Source: Lactiplantibacillus mudanjiangensis (lineage in GTDB: Bacteria; Bacillota; Bacilli; Lactobacillales; Lactobacillaceae). Taken from it: a stretch of 64,000 nt of DNA. The stretch's first letter is position 1; the number at the start of each line of letters is the position of its first letter. This document shows positions 3,427 to 58,576 of the stretch, in pieces. Location of the stretch: contig NZ_BJDY01000002.1 in the NCBI RefSeq assembly GCF_005405385.1, positions 1 through 64,000 on the forward strand. The letters run 5' to 3'. Below the pieces are notes generated by a model that saw only the letters and a list, made by a program, of their open reading frames with translations, ran no database searches and was not told the DNA's origin. The translations under genes and the position numbers were made by a program.

Positions 3427-6400
3427 ATGAACAAAAAGAGTCGTAGTGGATTAGAACCAAAGTTGCATTTTAAGCTCTACAAGTCAGGTAAACATTGGCT
3501 AGTTGCAGGAATTACCGTATTCGCGGTAGGAACCGGCCTTACAGTTGGTATCACTAAACAAGCAAACGCAGCTACTGATGATACGGGTGATACTAATACA
3601 AATACAACCACGACTACTACATCGGCAGCAAAGTCGACATCAGTCACGCTGAAAGTTAATAGCGCGTCAACAACATCGGCAGCACCTGCGAGTGAGACGA
3701 CTACGGGTCAAACGACGACATCTCAGGCAGTTAGTTCGGACCGTACCGCTACTAGCCAATCGGCAACTAGTCAGGCTGAATCAACGTCAGCTGATTCGGC
3801 TACTAGTGATACAAATAAAAGCGCTAACAGTTCGGCGGCAGTGACTAGTTCGACAGCCACATCGTCCAGCTCAGCAGCAGCCAGTGTCGACAGCCAGTCA
3901 CCAGTTAGTTCAGCGGCACAATCAGCCCAAAAAGTTGAACCGGTAAATGATACGACGGCAGTTTCATCAGCGCCATCAGCTAATTCAGCCGCTGTTGTCA
4001 CCGATGTATCGGCAGCTACGCCAGTGACCAAAGTTGCGTCGCCACGAATGAGTCGAGCATTAATGGCTGTGGCAGTGCCGACTGCGGCAAGTACGCAAAC
4101 TTTTGGGACGGCAACTTGGTCATTAGATGCTAACGGCGTATTGACGTTAGGGGCAGGGACGTTGCCAGCTAAGGGGAATTTTTATCCAGCGCCGTGGTAT
4201 AGCAGTGCTGCAGACGTTAAAACCGTCAATATTACTGGTAAGCTTATTGCTCAAGATACATTGGCTTCAATGTTTTCGGGAATGACTAATTTAACGACGA
4301 TTAATGGCTTGAATAACCTTGATACGAGCCATGTGACGGATATGAGTTCATTATTTGAAAATGATCAAAGCTTAACAGCAATTGATCTATCGAGTTTTGA
4401 TACAAGTCAAGTCACTAATATGAACAGTATGTTCCATGGTGATAAAAGTTTAACAGCGCTGGATCTATCAACATTTAAAACGACTAAAGTTACTGATATG
4501 GGAGGGATGTTTGGCGGTGATAGTGGCTTAACAGCGTTGGATGTCTCCGGTTTTGATACGAGCCATGTGACGGACATGTTTGCGATGTTTTCTGGTGTAA
4601 GTGGGATAACAACACTGGATGTGTCAAATTTTGATACAGCGAATGTAGAAACAATGGCTTCCATGTTCTATGGCATTCAGGTTACAGACTTGAATTTAAG
4701 CAATTTTAATACGAGTCAAGTGACGAATATGGCTTACATGTTTGAAGATGCTAAGGCATTAACGACTTTAGATTTGACTAGTTTTGATACGAGTAACGTC
4801 ACAAACATGATCGAAATGTTTAGTGGCGCTTCTAAGTTAGCATCCTTAAATGTCACTAGTTTTAATACAGCCAAGGTGACCAGCATGTTTAGTATGTTTT
4901 ATGGTGACCTAGCGTTAACCAGTCTTGATGTGTCAAAATTTGATACTGGTAACGTGACTAGTATGCATGCCATGTTTTATATGGATCAGAATCTTAATAA
5001 GTTAGATGTGTCGCATTTTAATACGGCCAAGGTGACGGACATGTCCGATATGTTTAACATGGCTACCAGTGTTGACACGCAGACTGCTTTGACGGTCTTG
5101 GATGTGTCAAATTTTGATACCAGTAGTGTGACTGATATGAGTGCCATGTTCGCAGATCTGCATAAAGTAACGGTCTTGGATGTATCAAACTTTAACACAC
5201 AGCATGTGACTGATATGGAATCTATGTTTAACGGCGATACGCAATTGGAAAACTTGGACGTTTCACATTTTGATACGGGTAATGTCACAACAATGTCGCA
5301 CATGTTTTTAAATGATTCCAGTCTATTGGCATTAGATGTGTCGAATTTTGACACTGAAAAAGTGACTGATATGAGCACTATGTTTGATTATGATGGTAGT
5401 CTTAATTCATTAAATCTTGCGAGTTTCACGATTTCAACTAGTACCAATCTAAATCAAATGCTGACTAATCTCACTCACCTTAAAGTTTTAGTCTTAGGTG
5501 ATCAAATTGCAACACTTAATGGTGCCTGGCTAGAAGATCCTGAAATACCAGGTAGTTATTGGCAAAATAAGGCGACTGGTACAATTGAGAAGCCAGCCGG
5601 AGACTATAAGCAGAATTCGATGAATTTAATTGCAGACTATAATCCAACGATGGCTGAAACGTATATTTGGACACAGGCACCAGTTGATGTTCAGAATACG
5701 ACTAAGACAGCAACACGAACGATTAAGTATTATGATTTAGATCAAACGGCGGGCACGATGACGTTAATTTCTGGTGTGGATACGGTTAGTCAAAAAGTGA
5801 CTTATACGCAAACTGCACTCGTTGATTCTTATAACCATAAGCTACTTGGTTACGATACGAATGGTGATGGCGTAGTTGATACAACTGATCCAGATGCTGC
5901 TTGGTATATTGCCAGTGGTGACAGTGCAACGTTTGAGGCTGTGGTTAGTCCAGATCTAAGTTCACGAGGTTACCAAGAACCTGGACAGGCTATTATTGCG
6001 GCTAAAACGCCGGCTTTCAGTGAATTGAGCAATATCAGTCTTGGTATTTACTACGAGCATCAACTTAACTGGGTACCTGAATACCGAACAGTGATGAGAA
6101 CGATTGACTATCAAGATGAAAACGGTAATGCGATGACTGACTTGAACCCAGTTGTTCAGATTGCTAATTTTAAGCGGTCTAATAAATGGGATATGGTTAC
6201 TAATCAGCAACTTGTTACCGGTGATTGGTCAAGCGATGTGACTGAATTCGGCACACAGACTTCACCGATTGTGACGGGCTATACGACCAAAGATACTGAA
6301 GTAGCAGCAATGTCGGTAACAGCTGATACTGAAAATAGTACCGAAAAAGTGATCTATGCCCTCAACGATGAGTTGGCTAATATTCAATACGTTGATATGG

Positions 6401-8990: not shown

Positions 8991-8996
8991 TTTATT

Positions 8997-9069
8997 GCTG
9001 AAACGTGCGCCCAAAGACTGCGCCTTCCGCTTAGCTACGCCTAGTCAAGGATTGAAGGATCATAATCAA
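8997..9069 (+). repeat. Half copy of the long-palindrome repeat family (P0)
   Basis: Begins GCTGAAACGTGC, carries CGCTTAGCTACG and GATTGAAGG, and ends near ATAATCA. This matches the left half of the full palindromes at 9104, 48046 and 58467 but has no matching right half. It lies directly upstream of a full copy. Confidence 0.7.
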
Positions 9070-9103
9070 GTTTTTAGATTCATTGTACTTAAATTGCTGA
9101 AAC

Positions 9104-9214
9104 GTGCAAAAAAAGCCTGGAACCTGTGCTTAGCTACGACAACCAAACGATTGAAAGACCCAATCATTTGGTTGTCTAGGCTAAGCACAGGTTCCAACCC
9201 GGCTTTTTTTGCAC
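9104..9214 (+). repeat. Long-palindrome repeat, copy P1
   Basis: About 111 bases fold end to end. The outer arm GTGCAAAAAAAGCC (9104-9117) pairs with GGCTTTTTTTGCAC (9201-9214). The middle arm ACCTGTGCTTAGC pairs with GCTAAGCACAGGT. The inner arm GACAACCAAA (9138-9147) pairs with TTTGGTTGTC (9167-9176) around the loop CGATTGAAAGACCCAATCA. It shares its GCTGAAACGTGC entry, CTTAGCTACG and the loop with copies at 48046 and 58467, while the arms differ. It lies between the BI-1 gene and polA and could also terminate transcription. Confidence 0.88.
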
Positions 9215-18655: not shown

Positions 18656-18780
18656 GTTGAGAAAAAAAGCAGAAGCACCCGCTTCTCGCCTAGGTGACTA
18701 AAGTCGTCGGGCAGATGAACGATGAATTAATTCCCATTAACGGGGTTGAGCGGGCGTATTATGCGCCCGCTCTTTTTGTG
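18656..18780 (+). promoter_or_regulatory. L20-type leader with attenuator terminator upstream of infC
   Basis: The transcript start region contains AGAAGCACCCGCTTCTCGCC and further paired segments, and ends in a strong terminator, GAGCGGGCG (18748-18756) with CGCCCGCTC (18764-18772) plus TTTTT. This layout matches the known Firmicute L20 leader, in which free ribosomal protein L20 binds the leader and promotes termination upstream of infC-rpmI-rplT. The family assignment rests on recognition, not on a covariance search. Confidence 0.8.
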
Positions 18781-18812
18781 GATTTCTCGAAATTTTACGG
18801 AGGTGAATTACC

Positions 18813-35523: not shown

Positions 35524-35611
35524 GGTGTCCAAATATTGATAGTTGAAGATTGAAAGTCAAATATGATGATAGAAATCATACTAGTATTAGTTTGAATTAT
35601 GACCAAATTAG

Positions 35612-36007
35612 TCACCTACGCCAGCCAGTGACTATGCCGGCTGTGGGGAACGGTTTCAGCCAAAAAACGGGCTTCCACCTCGCTTTTAAGCCTAGCCAAA
35701 ACCGCTAGTCTCAAAAGTCGTCCACATCGTAAAGTCCGGTAAAATCATCCGGCCTAACGATGTTTTCACGGCCGACGCCATCACTGGCTGGCTCCGGTTA
35801 GTTTGCAATATCATTTTAGTAATCACTAACACAGCCGAAAGTGAGTCCAAATTGAGCCCAGCCGTGGGAGCTCTTAGCGATTTATCACTTAGAGTCTGGC
35901 GCTTTTGAAACACGGACTTGGTGGTTCAAAACGATGGTCGAGACCGGTTTTTGGCTCGACCGGTCCGTCCACAGCGTTCCGGCTCAATGTGGACGAACGG
36001 TAGGTGA
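35612..36007 (+). repeat. Dispersed structured element, copy A (about 396 bp)
   Basis: Bounded by TCACCTAC and GTAGGTGA, a perfect 8-base terminal inverted repeat. Internal pairs: GCCAGCCAGTGA with TCACTGGCTGGC; hairpin ACATCGT...ACGATGT containing CCGG...CCGG; GGGCTT...AAGCC; CTCTTAGCGA with its partner; and GGTCGAG...CTCGACC near the right end. It is clearly homologous to copies at 39322 and 57983 and to the inverted half at 47816. Weaker similarity continues about 80 bases left (from AATATTGATAG near 35530) and about 20 bases right (to CCACTTTTG). No open frame is conserved. It lies between a terminator and the prenyltransferase promoter. Confidence 0.93.
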
Positions 36008-39321: not shown

Positions 39322-39695
39322 TCACCTACGCCAGCCAGTGATTCTGCCGGCTGTGGGGACCGGTTTCAGCCAAAGGACGGGCTTCCACCTCGCTTTTAAG
39401 CCTAGCCAAAACCACTAGTCTCAAAAGTCGGCTACATCGTAAGACCGGGAAAATCACCCGGACTAACGATGTTTTCACGGCCAGCGCCATCACTGGCTGG
39501 CTCCGGTTGTATTGCGAATACCAAGCAATCTTGTAATCACCATCATAACCGAGAGTGCCTCCACATTGAGCCCAGCCGTGGGAGCTCTTAGCGATTTATC
39601 GCTTAGAGCTTGGCGCTTTTGAGACACGCTGTGGGTGGCTCAAAACGACGGTCCACCCACAGCGTTCCGGCTCAAGGTGGGCGAACGGTAGGTGG
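39322..39695 (+). repeat. Dispersed structured element, copy B (about 374 bp)
   Basis: Same family as copy A, starting TCACCTAC and ending GTAGGTGG. It keeps the GCCAGCCAGTGAT/ATCACTGGCTGGC pair, ACATCGT...ACGATGT with CCGGG...CCCGG, and CTCTTAGCGA. It lacks the roughly 24-base hairpin that copies A and C carry near the right end; instead CGCTGTGGGTGG pairs directly with CCACCCACAGCG. Similarity continues to CTACTTTTGA near 39714. It lies between the methyltransferase gene and the HD gene. Confidence 0.93.
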
Positions 39696-39841
39696 CAAGA
39701 AAATCTACTTTTGAATCAGCGAGCGTCGTCCCCAAAAGTTATATCGTTTGTTAAATTAAGCTTGTTTGGTAAACAAAATACTTTCAAATTCACTTACTTT
39801 TTAGTAGAATAGCGGTAGTTATTAAGTAAAGGGAGCTTTCA

Positions 39842-40783: not shown

Positions 40784-40837
40784 GGCATATGTAAAGAAAA
40801 AAGCATTGACGAGAACTAGTAACTAGTTTGACATCAT

Positions 40838-41059
40838 CTACAGGGAAGTGAGCCATCGATTGCGAGCTCACTGGTGGTGCTGATTAGTGAATTCACTCTC
40901 TGAGCTGAAATTGGGCGTTTTGATTAAACAAATAATTTTCCGGTGCCACCGATCGTTATGCGGTGAAAGTGCGTTGTTTCATGACTTAGTGTCATTTGGA
41001 GACAACGAACAAGGGTGGTACCGCGATAACCTCGTCCCTTTTTAGGATGAGGTTTTTTT
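40838..41059 (+). promoter_or_regulatory. T-box riboswitch, phenylalanine (specifier TTC)
   Basis: Leader of pheST. CAGGGA (40841-40846) pairs with TCTCTG, and the specifier side reads GAA-TTC-A with TTC, a Phe codon, at 40892-40894. The T-box core AAGGGTGGTACCGCG lies at 41011-41025. The terminator AACCTCGTCC (41028-41037) pairs with GGATGAGGTT (41045-41054), then seven T. Read-through is expected when tRNA-Phe is uncharged. Confidence 0.94.
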
Positions 41060-41097: not shown

Positions 41098-42144
41098 ATG
41101 AGCTTACAAGATCGGTTAACTGAACTACGCGATCAAGGCTTGGCAGACATTAAGTCCGCTGATGTTTTGAACAAAGTCAACCAAATCAAGGTTGATTTGT
41201 TAGGTAAAAAAGGACCTATCACCGAAGTATTACGTGGGATGCGCGACTTAACTCCTGAAGAACGACCAAAAGTTGGGGCTTATGCCAACGAGATCCGTGA
41301 TCACTTGCAAAATGCGATTGATCATCGGCGGTCTGAATTAGAAGAAGCTGCGGTTAACGCACAATTGGCTGCAGAAAAGCTAGACGTGACCTTACCAGGT
41401 CGGACGGTTCCTCAAGGCCAACCACATGTGATTACCCAAATTATCACTGAATTAGAAGACTTATTCATCGGTATGGGTTACGAAATTGAAGACGGGGATG
41501 AAGTTGAAGAAGATTATTATAACTTCGAACGTTTGAACTTACCTAAGGATCATCCCGCTCGTGATATGCAAGATACGTTCTACATCACCAAGGAAGTCTT
41601 ATTACGGACCCAAACGTCAGCCGATCAACCACGCGCATTGGAAAGTCATGACTTTTCAAAGGGCCCATTGAAGGTGTTAACCCCCGGCCGGGTTTATCGT
41701 CGGGATACAGATGATGCCACGCATTCACATCAATTCCACCAAATTGAAGGGTTAGTCGTTGATAAACATATTACGATGGCTGATTTGAAAGGTACGTTGA
41801 CTTTGGTTGCCAATACCTTATTCGGTGATCAATTTGACGTGCGGTTACGTCCAAGTTACTTCCCATTCACGGAACCTTCTGTTGAAGCCGATGTGACTTG
41901 CTTTAACTGTAATGGTAAGGGCTGTGCCGTCTGCAAGCAAACCGGTTGGATCGAAGTCTTAGGGGCTGGGATGGTACATCCACGCGTCTTAGAAATGTCC
42001 GGCATTGACCCTGAAGTCTACGGTGGTTTTGCCTTTGGTTTAGGACCAGATCGTTTTGCAATGTTGAAGTATGGGGTTGATGATATCCGTAACTTCTACT
42101 TAAATGATGTTCGGTTCTTGTCACAATTCTACAAGAAAGGTTAG
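41098..42144 (+). CDS. pheS: Phenylalanyl-tRNA synthetase alpha subunit
   Basis: Catalytic subunit of the heterotetrameric class II synthetase, 348 residues. An N-terminal coiled coil is followed by motif 2 ([26 protein letters not shown]) and motif 3 ([20 protein letters not shown]). A CxxC-type zinc-like cluster ([16 protein letters not shown]) lies near residue 270, as in many Firmicutes. TTGGAGGAAG precedes the ATG. pheT follows 9 bases after the stop. Confidence 0.97.
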
Positions 42145-47815: not shown

Positions 47816-48009
47816 AAATATAACCGGAGTCAACCAGTGATGGTGCCAGCTGTGAGAACATCGTTAGTCCGGGTGGCTTTCCCGGTCTTACGATGTGGAC
47901 GACTTTTGAGACTGGCGGTTTGGGCTAGGCTTAAAAGCGAGGTGGAAGCCCGCATTTTGGGCTGGAATCGGTCCCCACAGCAGGCAGAATCACTGGCTGA
48001 CGTAGGTGG
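47816..48009 (-). repeat. Dispersed structured element, inverted partial copy D (about 194 bp)
   Basis: Reverse-complement match to the left half of copies A-C. Read on the minus strand from 48009 it starts CCACCTAC, keeps GGGCTTCCACCTCGC, ACATCGT...ACGATGT with CCGGG...CCCGG, and stops after CCGGTTATATT. The right half is missing. The long-palindrome repeat P2 lies 36 bases to its right. Confidence 0.9.
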
Positions 48010-48045
48010 TTAATTTAGGTATCTTCTAATATTTATAGCCGAAAC

Positions 48046-48156
48046 GTGCGACAAAAGACTGCTCCCTCCGCTTAGCTACGGAATAAGAACGATTGAAAGT
48101 GCACAATCATTCTTATTCCTAGGCTATACTCGGTAGCAAAGCGTCTTTTGTCGCAC
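48046..48156. repeat. Long-palindrome repeat, copy P2
   Basis: Outer arm GTGCGACAAAAGAC (48046-48059) pairs perfectly with GTCTTTTGTCGCAC (48143-48156). Inner arm GGAATAAGAA (48080-48089) pairs perfectly with TTCTTATTCC (48110-48119) around the loop CGATTGAAAGTGCACAATCA. The sequence before it, GCCGAAACGTGC, matches the start of P0 and P1. It lies at the 3' end of the minus-strand LiaF-like gene and may act as its terminator. Confidence 0.9.
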
Positions 48157-57887: not shown

Positions 57888-57982
57888 GTTTCCTCGAATA
57901 TTTATAGTCAAAAAGCTAAAGGTTGAAAGTTAAATGTATTGGTCGAAACCGTACCAACATTGACTTAAGTTGGATTAAATTG

Positions 57983-58382
57983 TCACCTACGCCAGCCAGT
58001 GATTCTGCCGGCTGTGGGGACCGGTTTCAGCCAAAGTGCGGGCTTCCGCCTCGCTTTTGAGCCTAGTCAAAACCACTAGTCTCAAAAGTCGTCCATATCG
58101 TAAAGTCCGGGAAAAATACCCGGACTAACGATATTTCCACGGCCGGCGCCATCATTGGCTGACTCCGGTTGTATTGCGACTACCAATCAATTTCGTAATC
58201 ACCATCATAACCGAGAGTGAGCTCACATTGAGCCCAGCCGTGGGAGCTCTTGGCGATTTATCGCTTAGAGATCGGCGTTTTTGAAACGCGGTTTAGGCGG
58301 TTCAAAACGACGGTTCAGACCGCTTCTTGGCTGAACCGGTCCGCCCACAGCGTTCCGGCTCAATGTGGGCGAACGGTAGGTG
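57983..58382 (+). repeat. Dispersed structured element, copy C (about 400 bp)
   Basis: Starts TCACCTAC and ends GTAGGTGG. Relative to copies A and B several helices changed on both sides: ATATCGT...ACGATAT (A/B: ACATCGT...ACGATGT) and GGTTCAG...CTGAACC (A: GGTCGAG...CTCGACC). It is flanked by an extra inverted repeat, CTAAAGGTTGAAAG (57916-57929) and CTTTCAACCTTTAG (58446-58459). Palindrome P3 follows. This fills most of the 855-base gap between glk and the rhodanese gene. Confidence 0.93.
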
Positions 58383-58466
58383 GCAAGTATGACTACTTTT
58401 GATCGATGAATGCTTATCATATCAACGATTATTGCTAAAACCTAGCTTTCAACCTTTAGTCAAAAA

Positions 58467-58576
58467 GTACGACAAAAGACTAACAATGCAACCGAGCTAC
58501 GGCATACGAACGGTTGAAAATACACAATCATTCATATGCCTGGGCTATGCCCGGTAGAAAACTGTCTTTTATCGAC
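58467..58576. repeat. Long-palindrome repeat, copy P3
   Basis: Outer arm GACAAAAGAC (58471-58480) pairs with GTCTTTTATC with one mismatch. Inner arm GGCATACGAA (58501-58510) pairs with TTCATATGCC (58531-58540), one C-A mismatch, around CGGTTGAAAATACACAATCA. It shares GAGCTACG and GGGCTATGCC with the corresponding positions of P1 and P2. It looks slightly decayed compared with P1 and P2. Confidence 0.85.

Follow-up and report, generated by a model that had tools for sequence, protein, structure and literature searches.

The locus at 35612-36007 of the window (the whole stretch of 64,000 nucleotides of Lactiplantibacillus mudanjiangensis DNA that was analyzed) carries one copy of a dispersed element, in which both strands of the same helices appear to change together from copy to copy. 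The question raised by this locus is whether such changes reflect selection on a fold and, if so, whether that fold acts as RNA or as DNA. A preliminary description of the sequence had proposed either a structured RNA or a hairpin-recognized DNA element.

The paired changes on which that proposal rested were for the most part recovered. A string search located ACATCGT/ACGATGT in copies A (35724/35757) and B (39434/39466) and ATATCGT/ACGATAT in copy C (58095/58128). Two pairs differ between GGTCGAG/CTCGACC of copy A (35936/35955) and GGTTCAG/CTGAACC of copy C (58312/58331), and the helix GCCAGCCAGTGA/TCACTGGCTGGC (35620/35781) does close the left half. Two further claims stood only in part. GGAC (35991) pairs with GTCC (35845) in copy A as described, but its equivalent in copy C, given as GCGG/CCGC, reads GGGC/GCTC in the alignment. 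Likewise, the 12-nt helix CGCTGTGGGTGG/CCACCCACAGCG of copy B exists (39627-39638 and 39653-39664), but its interpretation as a selected replacement for a lost hairpin is not compelling. It lies next to the deletion and repeats the downstream 12-mer exactly in inverted form, from which we infer that a template-switch mutation accounts for it equally well or better.

Four copies of the element are present in the window, namely A, B, C and a fourth, inverted half copy (Table 1). The interval 35612-36007 represents the core only, the whole element with its ends measuring ~545 bp; copy A has a degenerate left, upstream arm (about 35543-35611) and has lost most of its right arm. In the genome of this species, a pattern search allowing up to 3 mismatches detected at least 138 right-half and at least 129 left-half sites, and the reversed patterns gave none. 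The fetched stretches of this genome, a few of which overlap, contained 137 element matches (100 with both core ends), and the own-genome alignment used below comprises the 76 copies that passed end and length filters.

Table 1. Coordinates of the element, its structured units and its ends (positions in the window unless a locus is named; R1, covariance model of the unit)
Feature	Position	Strand	R1 score (bits)	Remarks
Copy A, core	35612-36007	+		396 bp; interval under study
Left structured unit, copy A	35639-35776	-	101.1	
Right structured unit, copy A	35857-35976	+	102.4	
Copy B	39322-39739	+		Damaged; has a deletion inside and an inverted 12-mer (39627/39653) resembling a template switch
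Left unit, copy B	39349-39485	-	96.9	
Right unit, copy B	39571-39664	+	67.1	Damaged
Fourth copy	47821-48008	-		Inverted; left half alone recognizable
Unit of fourth copy	47845-47982	+ (sense strand)	90.7	
Copy C, complete element	57916-58459	+		Intact; 544 bp, both terminal inverted repeats
Left target-site duplication, copy C	57908-57915			TCAAAAAG
Right target-site duplication, copy C	58460-58467			TCAAAAAG
Left terminal inverted repeat, copy C	57916-57932	+		CTAAAGGTTGAAAGTTA
Right terminal inverted repeat, copy C	58443-58459	-		TAGCTTTCAACCTTTAG on +; 16/17 identical to left
Left structured unit, copy C	58010-58147	- (sense, inferred)	100.7	Without outer helix P1
Right structured unit, copy C	58233-58352	+ (sense, inferred)	106.2	Without P1
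Second-subfamily copies	L131 2572-3120; L133 2529-3066; L134 2522-3070; L135 1965-2514			

In the L. mudanjiangensis genome the element is a non-autonomous DNA transposon (a miniature inverted-repeat transposable element, MITE), as defined by the terminal inverted repeats (TIRs) and target-site duplications (TSDs) observed there directly. AT-rich arms extend outside the core and end in CTAAAGGTTGAAAGTTA and its inverse, the TIRs being 17 bp long. Conservation is lower in these arms than in the core (commonest-base fraction 0.59-0.78 versus 0.78-0.98 in 20-column means), the low end of the core range being the central spacer. The TIR pattern CTAAAGGTTGAAAG(A/T)TA had 104 matches with at most one mismatch, versus none for the reversed control, and exact duplications of 7 bp (11 cases), 8 bp (14) or 9 bp (1) were found in 26 of the 46 both-ended elements, where pairing the flanks of different elements gave a chance level of ~0.1. 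Both ends have been kept in many copies with internal deletions, several of whose junctions lie, by eye, at short direct repeats. The second subfamily consists of four full copies that are 93-96% alike mutually and resemble part of a main-type copy at ~75%; the likeness among the four suggests recent movement. Among 20 further TIR-bearing places, 19 proved to be element sequence (full copies, deletion derivatives or second subfamily) and one (L142) a lone TIR. No autonomous parent was found among the 100 of the 104 TIR matches that were listed and the 20 fetched places, open reading frames having been listed for L131 and L134 only. Cargo of a plasmid or phage was considered and rejected, since copy C matched neither the plasmid nor the phage collection at the DNA level (E-value of 1e-5).

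The core is composed of two homologous multi-branched units of ~185 nt (an estimate that includes P1), inverted relative to one another and arranged centre-out, the strand inferred to fold running in each from the middle of the element towards its end. RNAalifold, applied to the 76 copies, folded the core into two three-arm units, one on the left and one on the right, with a central hairpin between them. The right half corresponds to the left half in inverted, diverged form. A single HMM, built from the right units together with reverse-complemented left units, recognized both halves in 13 of the 20 fetched relative loci. Each unit is planned as a long closing helix (P1), the sequence of which is free to vary, followed by a junction of three hairpins with conserved letters (GCCGTG, GGACG/TGGCG, GCGAGG, AGNCCGC..GGCT and CCACAGC); 28 columns, some of them paired, are invariant in 30 sequences across genera. 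The units of copy C have fold z-scores of -5.1 and -7.5. Neighbouring units were oriented centre-out in 33 of 35 pairs from 60 relative loci (34 of 36 when one own-genome locus is added). This count used 61 of 70 loci, leaving out six loci from a genus outside the family, L187 and L199 (the same places as L156 and L161) and L166, in which two units, also centre-out, lie at a contig end.

Covariation above the phylogenetic background, on which the preliminary proposal depended, was observed directly in alignments larger than the one from which it arose: within the genome, across genera, and in P1. In the own-genome alignment (132 pairs), the mean APC-corrected G was 4.87, versus -0.02 +/- 0.25 under a tree-based null (maximum 0.57 in 40 simulations), 0.04 +/- 0.30 under a uniform-rate null and 0.2-0.6 for slid structures, which served as a control. 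Individually significant pairs numbered 6 of 132 by the within-structure E-value (3 of 132 under the uniform null) and 1 of 132 by the all-pairs E-value. On the tree of the 76 copies, double changes on the same branch led from Watson-Crick to Watson-Crick in 73 cases, to a mismatch in 3, and from G.U to A.C in one.

Across genera, the mean over 100 rows was 59.3 versus a null of 0.12 +/- 1.7, and 13 of 27 pairs were significant. When all 8128 pairs were considered, 9 of the 10 significant ones fell inside the structure (9 of 11 under the uniform null). The rows derive from 109 hits, 105 of them distinct, minus five from the outside genus, with columns of more than half gaps removed; the counts are subject to the caveat that the alignment was fitted to the covariance model. 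P1 lies outside that model. It forms at least 8 pairs, with G.U allowed, in 91 of 99 units (85 distinct arms), versus 16.5% when flanks were swapped between units.

These data bear on the possibility that the element is merely a selfish DNA repeat, with a fold that has no role and covariation fixed by chance in a few master copies and spread by hitch-hiking. Single changes from Watson-Crick on terminal branches, which lead to A.C in 143 cases and to G.U in 137 on the plus strand, agree with such a repeat, as do the decay of copies and their loss of arms. Against this, the double changes on terminal branches comprise 48 from Watson-Crick to Watson-Crick and only 3 to a mismatch, changes at the tips are rarer at paired than at unpaired sites (2.09 versus 5.23 per site, the unpaired class including the fast central loop), and the covariation between genera contradicts it. 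A fold without a role is accordingly regarded as very unlikely.

The strand that folds was approached through mismatch types, using the 117 Watson-Crick pairs predicted on both strands in order to avoid strand bias. The asymmetry is a direct observation: on the plus strand, the left half has 107 extant A.C and 39 G.U, and the right half 40 and 127, respectively. By a sign test over pairs, either half splits 26 to 11 (p=0.02 each), with the direction reversed between them. From this opposite wobble asymmetry, the left unit appears to fold on the minus strand and the right unit on the plus strand. In the fitted cross-genus alignment, G.U exceeded A.C on the sense strand by 144 to 12, and P1 agreed (G.U 16, A.C 4, p=0.012). 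The excess concerns mostly G-C pairs, however, and related sequences are not independent. A control for mutation bias at unpaired sites was mixed, three of four comparisons running parallel to the strand asymmetry and one opposing it, over few sites. In the left half, changes per site were 10.25 for G>A versus 3.81 for C>T (with just 4 G sites) and 6.31 for T>C versus 2.82 for A>G; in the right half they were 5.25 for C>T versus 3.67 for G>A, and, in the opposing comparison, 2.71 for T>C versus 1.6 for A>G.

The asymmetry also weighs on a mutational explanation without selection, in which changes in one hairpin arm are transferred to the other by template switching and quasipalindrome correction. 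The inverted 12-mer adjoining the deletion in copy B fits such an event, and the deletion derivatives joined at short direct repeats point the same way. The process nevertheless predicts equal numbers of G.U and A.C, whereas the observed asymmetry is opposite between the halves and repeated in P1 (subject to the mutation-bias caveat), and it leaves the 28 invariant columns unexplained. As the sole cause it is largely refuted by the conservation across genera and is the least probable of the readings considered, although it may have contributed some events.

Covariation supports the proposal of a structured RNA or a hairpin-recognized DNA element, without fully separating RNA from single-stranded DNA. 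The main rival to an RNA is that the folds act as single-stranded DNA, forming a hairpin recognition site for a transposase or the replication machinery on the transferred strand, since the geometry is identical to that of the RNA reading. For a cut-and-paste transposon, the transferred strand is here the one ending 3' at the element's own end, and the minus strand of the left unit and the plus strand of the right unit are exactly the two transferred strands. The inverted order of the units also resembles that of the paired REPs of REPINs, as far as the accessible part of the source describes them (PMC3116915). The evidence from relatives, given below, opposes this rival, which we hold to be unlikely without dismissing it.

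The unit is distributed widely in the family. A DNA similarity search matched 47 of 397 sampled Lactobacillaceae genomes in 7 of 40 genera, and the covariance model R1 (E-value of 0.001 or less, best hits up to 8 per genome) matched 123 of 397 genomes in 14 of 40 genera, including 18 of 21 within the genus. The right-half pattern was absent from the other sampled members of the genus, the one match in 21 genomes being L. mudanjiangensis itself. Copy number is locally high: an exact hairpin pattern had 171 matches in the L. mudanjiangensis genome; five genomes of genus g16 had 328, 322, 320, 170 and 159, one genome each of two other genera (g4 and g15) had 159 and 146, respectively, and genome G005 had 122. 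The reversed hairpin gave 0 or 1 in these nine genomes with 122-328 matches. As a separate observation, in genome G098 of genus g12 (C4 201792-202154 and C5 138504-138711) the hairpin hits are 168-181 bp apart in one orientation, a spacing by which the unit may form tandem arrays too.

Single-stranded DNA recognition is harder to reconcile with what accompanies the unit in these relatives. In 27 of the 60 relative loci, a single unit was detected at an E-value of 0.01 without a recognizable partner within the stretch at hand. Moreover, none of the 33 unit pairs from other species and genera was enclosed by TIR and TSD, while the same method, as a positive control, recovered 27 of 46 own-genome elements. 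The MITE label, and transposition by these ends, consequently apply to the L. mudanjiangensis genome only.

A third line of evidence against recognition as DNA comes from another genus, in which the unit occurs at loci matching a small RNA family verified on Northern blots. In a class-wide sample, R1 matched 5 of 299 genomes, comprising L. mudanjiangensis and four genomes of one outside genus. The link to SSRC8 depends on the R1 E-values in this sample, which are 1e-4 to 6e-4 for each genome. Six R1 loci from that genus match the Rfam family SSRC8_2 (RF02616) on the same strand as R1; one (L186) scored 92.3 bits, above the cut-off of 72, and the other five 45.1-51.7 bits, below it. They share with SSRC8_2 the layout GCCGTGAG .. 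TTTTGAGAC..GGCTCAAAA .. CTCAC. Unlike the Lactobacillaceae units, these loci number only one or two per genome, with no inverted pair among the hits. One of them (L185, 1009-1121) lies between two genes, presumably grpE and dnaK as read from their translations, and on their strand. The SSRC8_2 model itself gave no match up to an E-value of 0.5 in nine Lactobacillaceae loci. According to the part of the report available, SSRC8 of S. pyogenes was detected by Northern blotting and sequenced by means of circular RACE (PMC3675131).

No known RNA family accounts for the element: nothing relevant was found in Rfam release 15 over the stretches scanned. At the gathering score, the whole window yielded a T-box leader and an L20 leader only, and in lax scans the intact copy C gave sub-threshold hits only and the units of nine relative loci gave none. 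Lac-1 of L. johnsonii, which is genic according to the portion of its description at hand, is different (PMC2267715). No earlier description of the element was found in the literature, most subscription journals having been outside the search. The unit fills an annotation gap: about a third of the Lactobacillaceae genomes sampled (the 123 above) contain this RNA-like family, which Rfam leaves unmatched in those stretches.

The window contains several other features. The T-box leader (40797-41042) is followed by a gene at 41098, which we take to encode a phenylalanyl-tRNA synthetase subunit, and the L20 leader lies at 18661-18784. A second short repeat family occurs at 8994-9058, 9093-9157 and 48035-48099 (TTGCTGAAACGTGC .. 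GCTTAGCTACG .. GATTGAAAG); similar letters adjoin, by eye, other copies of the main element (L103 and L090), and this is perhaps another small mobile element. Positions 1-86 hold a tandem repeat of 9 bp (TGAAGCCAG), and 4297-5384 a coding-looking repeat of 13 copies, mostly spaced at 78 bp.

With regard to gene context, the elements are located beside the 3' ends of genes. A total of 97 lie between genes that are tandem (49), convergent (42) or divergent (6), with 3 more incomplete. For 128 gene 3' ends, 7 others with gaps of more than 250 nt having been excluded, the distance between stop codon and element is ~20 nt. A terminator was found past the element in 31 cases, before it in 26, on both sides in 1 and not at all in 70, with a shuffled control giving 1 of 128. 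From this placement and the terminator positions, some copies are likely to be transcribed by read-through, in the absence of transcript data from Lactobacillaceae. A strict read-through model was not supported by the orientation of single units in relatives, which weakens it by giving no significant sense preference: the upstream gene was co-directional in 17 cases and opposite in 9 (p=0.17), while units between tandem genes were divided equally, 5 sense and 5 antisense. No spacer promoter and no conserved promoter were found in a scan of copies A and C; copy C had 2 candidates versus 1.5 expected, near chance, and copy A had 5 versus 0.8 expected, all within the flanks. The unclear orientation preference and the spacer without a promoter both favor folding as single-stranded DNA.

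The explanation that we prefer, with moderate confidence, is a MITE that carries a pair of conserved multi-branched structured RNA units, the action as RNA being inferred without transcripts from this family of bacteria. Selection at the RNA level is most likely because of the conserved junction letters, the freely varying P1 and the resemblance to the small RNA. Junction letters conserved so strongly are more usual in RNA and also count against recognition as DNA. In the mechanism envisaged, an unidentified transposase would act in trans to copy the element into intergenic sites near gene ends and terminators, and the units would act as RNA, produced by read-through of neighbouring genes or from a promoter that was not found. 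Owing to the inverted arrangement, one of the two units is read in the correct sense whichever side transcription enters from. The folded RNA might keep functional elements spreading or tolerated; its most plausible role would be to bind a cell protein, or to shield or insulate mRNA 3' ends, as REP elements of Escherichia coli do. The streptococcal SSRC8 would then be a relative or an architectural twin of the unit. More tentatively, the unit can be viewed as a family-wide structured RNA, present in more than 100 copies per genome in several lactobacilli and often in inverted pairs, selected at the RNA level and spread here by a transposon. It would possibly be a bacterial counterpart of SINEs, a mobile cellular RNA related to the streptococcal one and binding a common cell partner.

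REP, ERIC and BOX, which are high-copy structured repeats, have long been known, yet opinions differ as to whether it is RNA or a transposition substrate that their folds serve as. The present family makes that question testable in harmless food bacteria, by virtue of a folded strand read from wobble pairs, a consensus that is sharp across genera and captured by a covariance model, and a layout shared with a Northern-verified small RNA. BOX elements of Streptococcus are modular, consisting of boxA, boxB and boxC. The definition of REPINs and BIMEs calls for a RAYT tyrosine transposase and for short REP palindromes in an inverted pair; identity with these was rejected, the requirement for short REPs being unmet by multi-branched units of ~185 nt.

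As described in the accessible text, REPINs and BIMEs combine two inverted hairpin units, have many extragenic copies, are non-autonomous and also occur as solo units (PMC3116915). To that extent the present element, likewise a non-autonomous inverted pair with many extragenic copies and solo units, resembles them; unlike them, its units carry three hairpins each and are enclosed by TIR and TSD. The pneumococcal BOX, RUP and SPRITE repeats are, in the part of their account available, high-copy and intergenic with extensive structure, some being expressed, and BOX is almost wholly missing from other streptococci except for related elements of S. suis (PMC3049150). Our element shares their copy number, intergenic position and extensive structure; unlike BOX, its unit is family-wide and has a cross-genus consensus. 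Bacterial MITEs, as far as the consulted portion of a recent source goes, are short and non-coding, with terminal inverted repeats, AT-rich intergenic targets and structured transcripts; the 7-9 bp direct repeats of QMITE2 in Coxiella and small RNAs borne by MITEs are also reported there (PMC10969869). The element conforms to this picture in its shortness, lack of coding sequence, TIRs, AT-rich intergenic targets and duplications of 7-9 bp, comparable to those of QMITE2. In contrast to such MITEs, its interior holds a conserved multi-branched unit, present in 14 genera, in duplicate, and it is this cargo, an inverted pair of a conserved, family-wide structured unit that is unmatched by Rfam here, that sets it apart.
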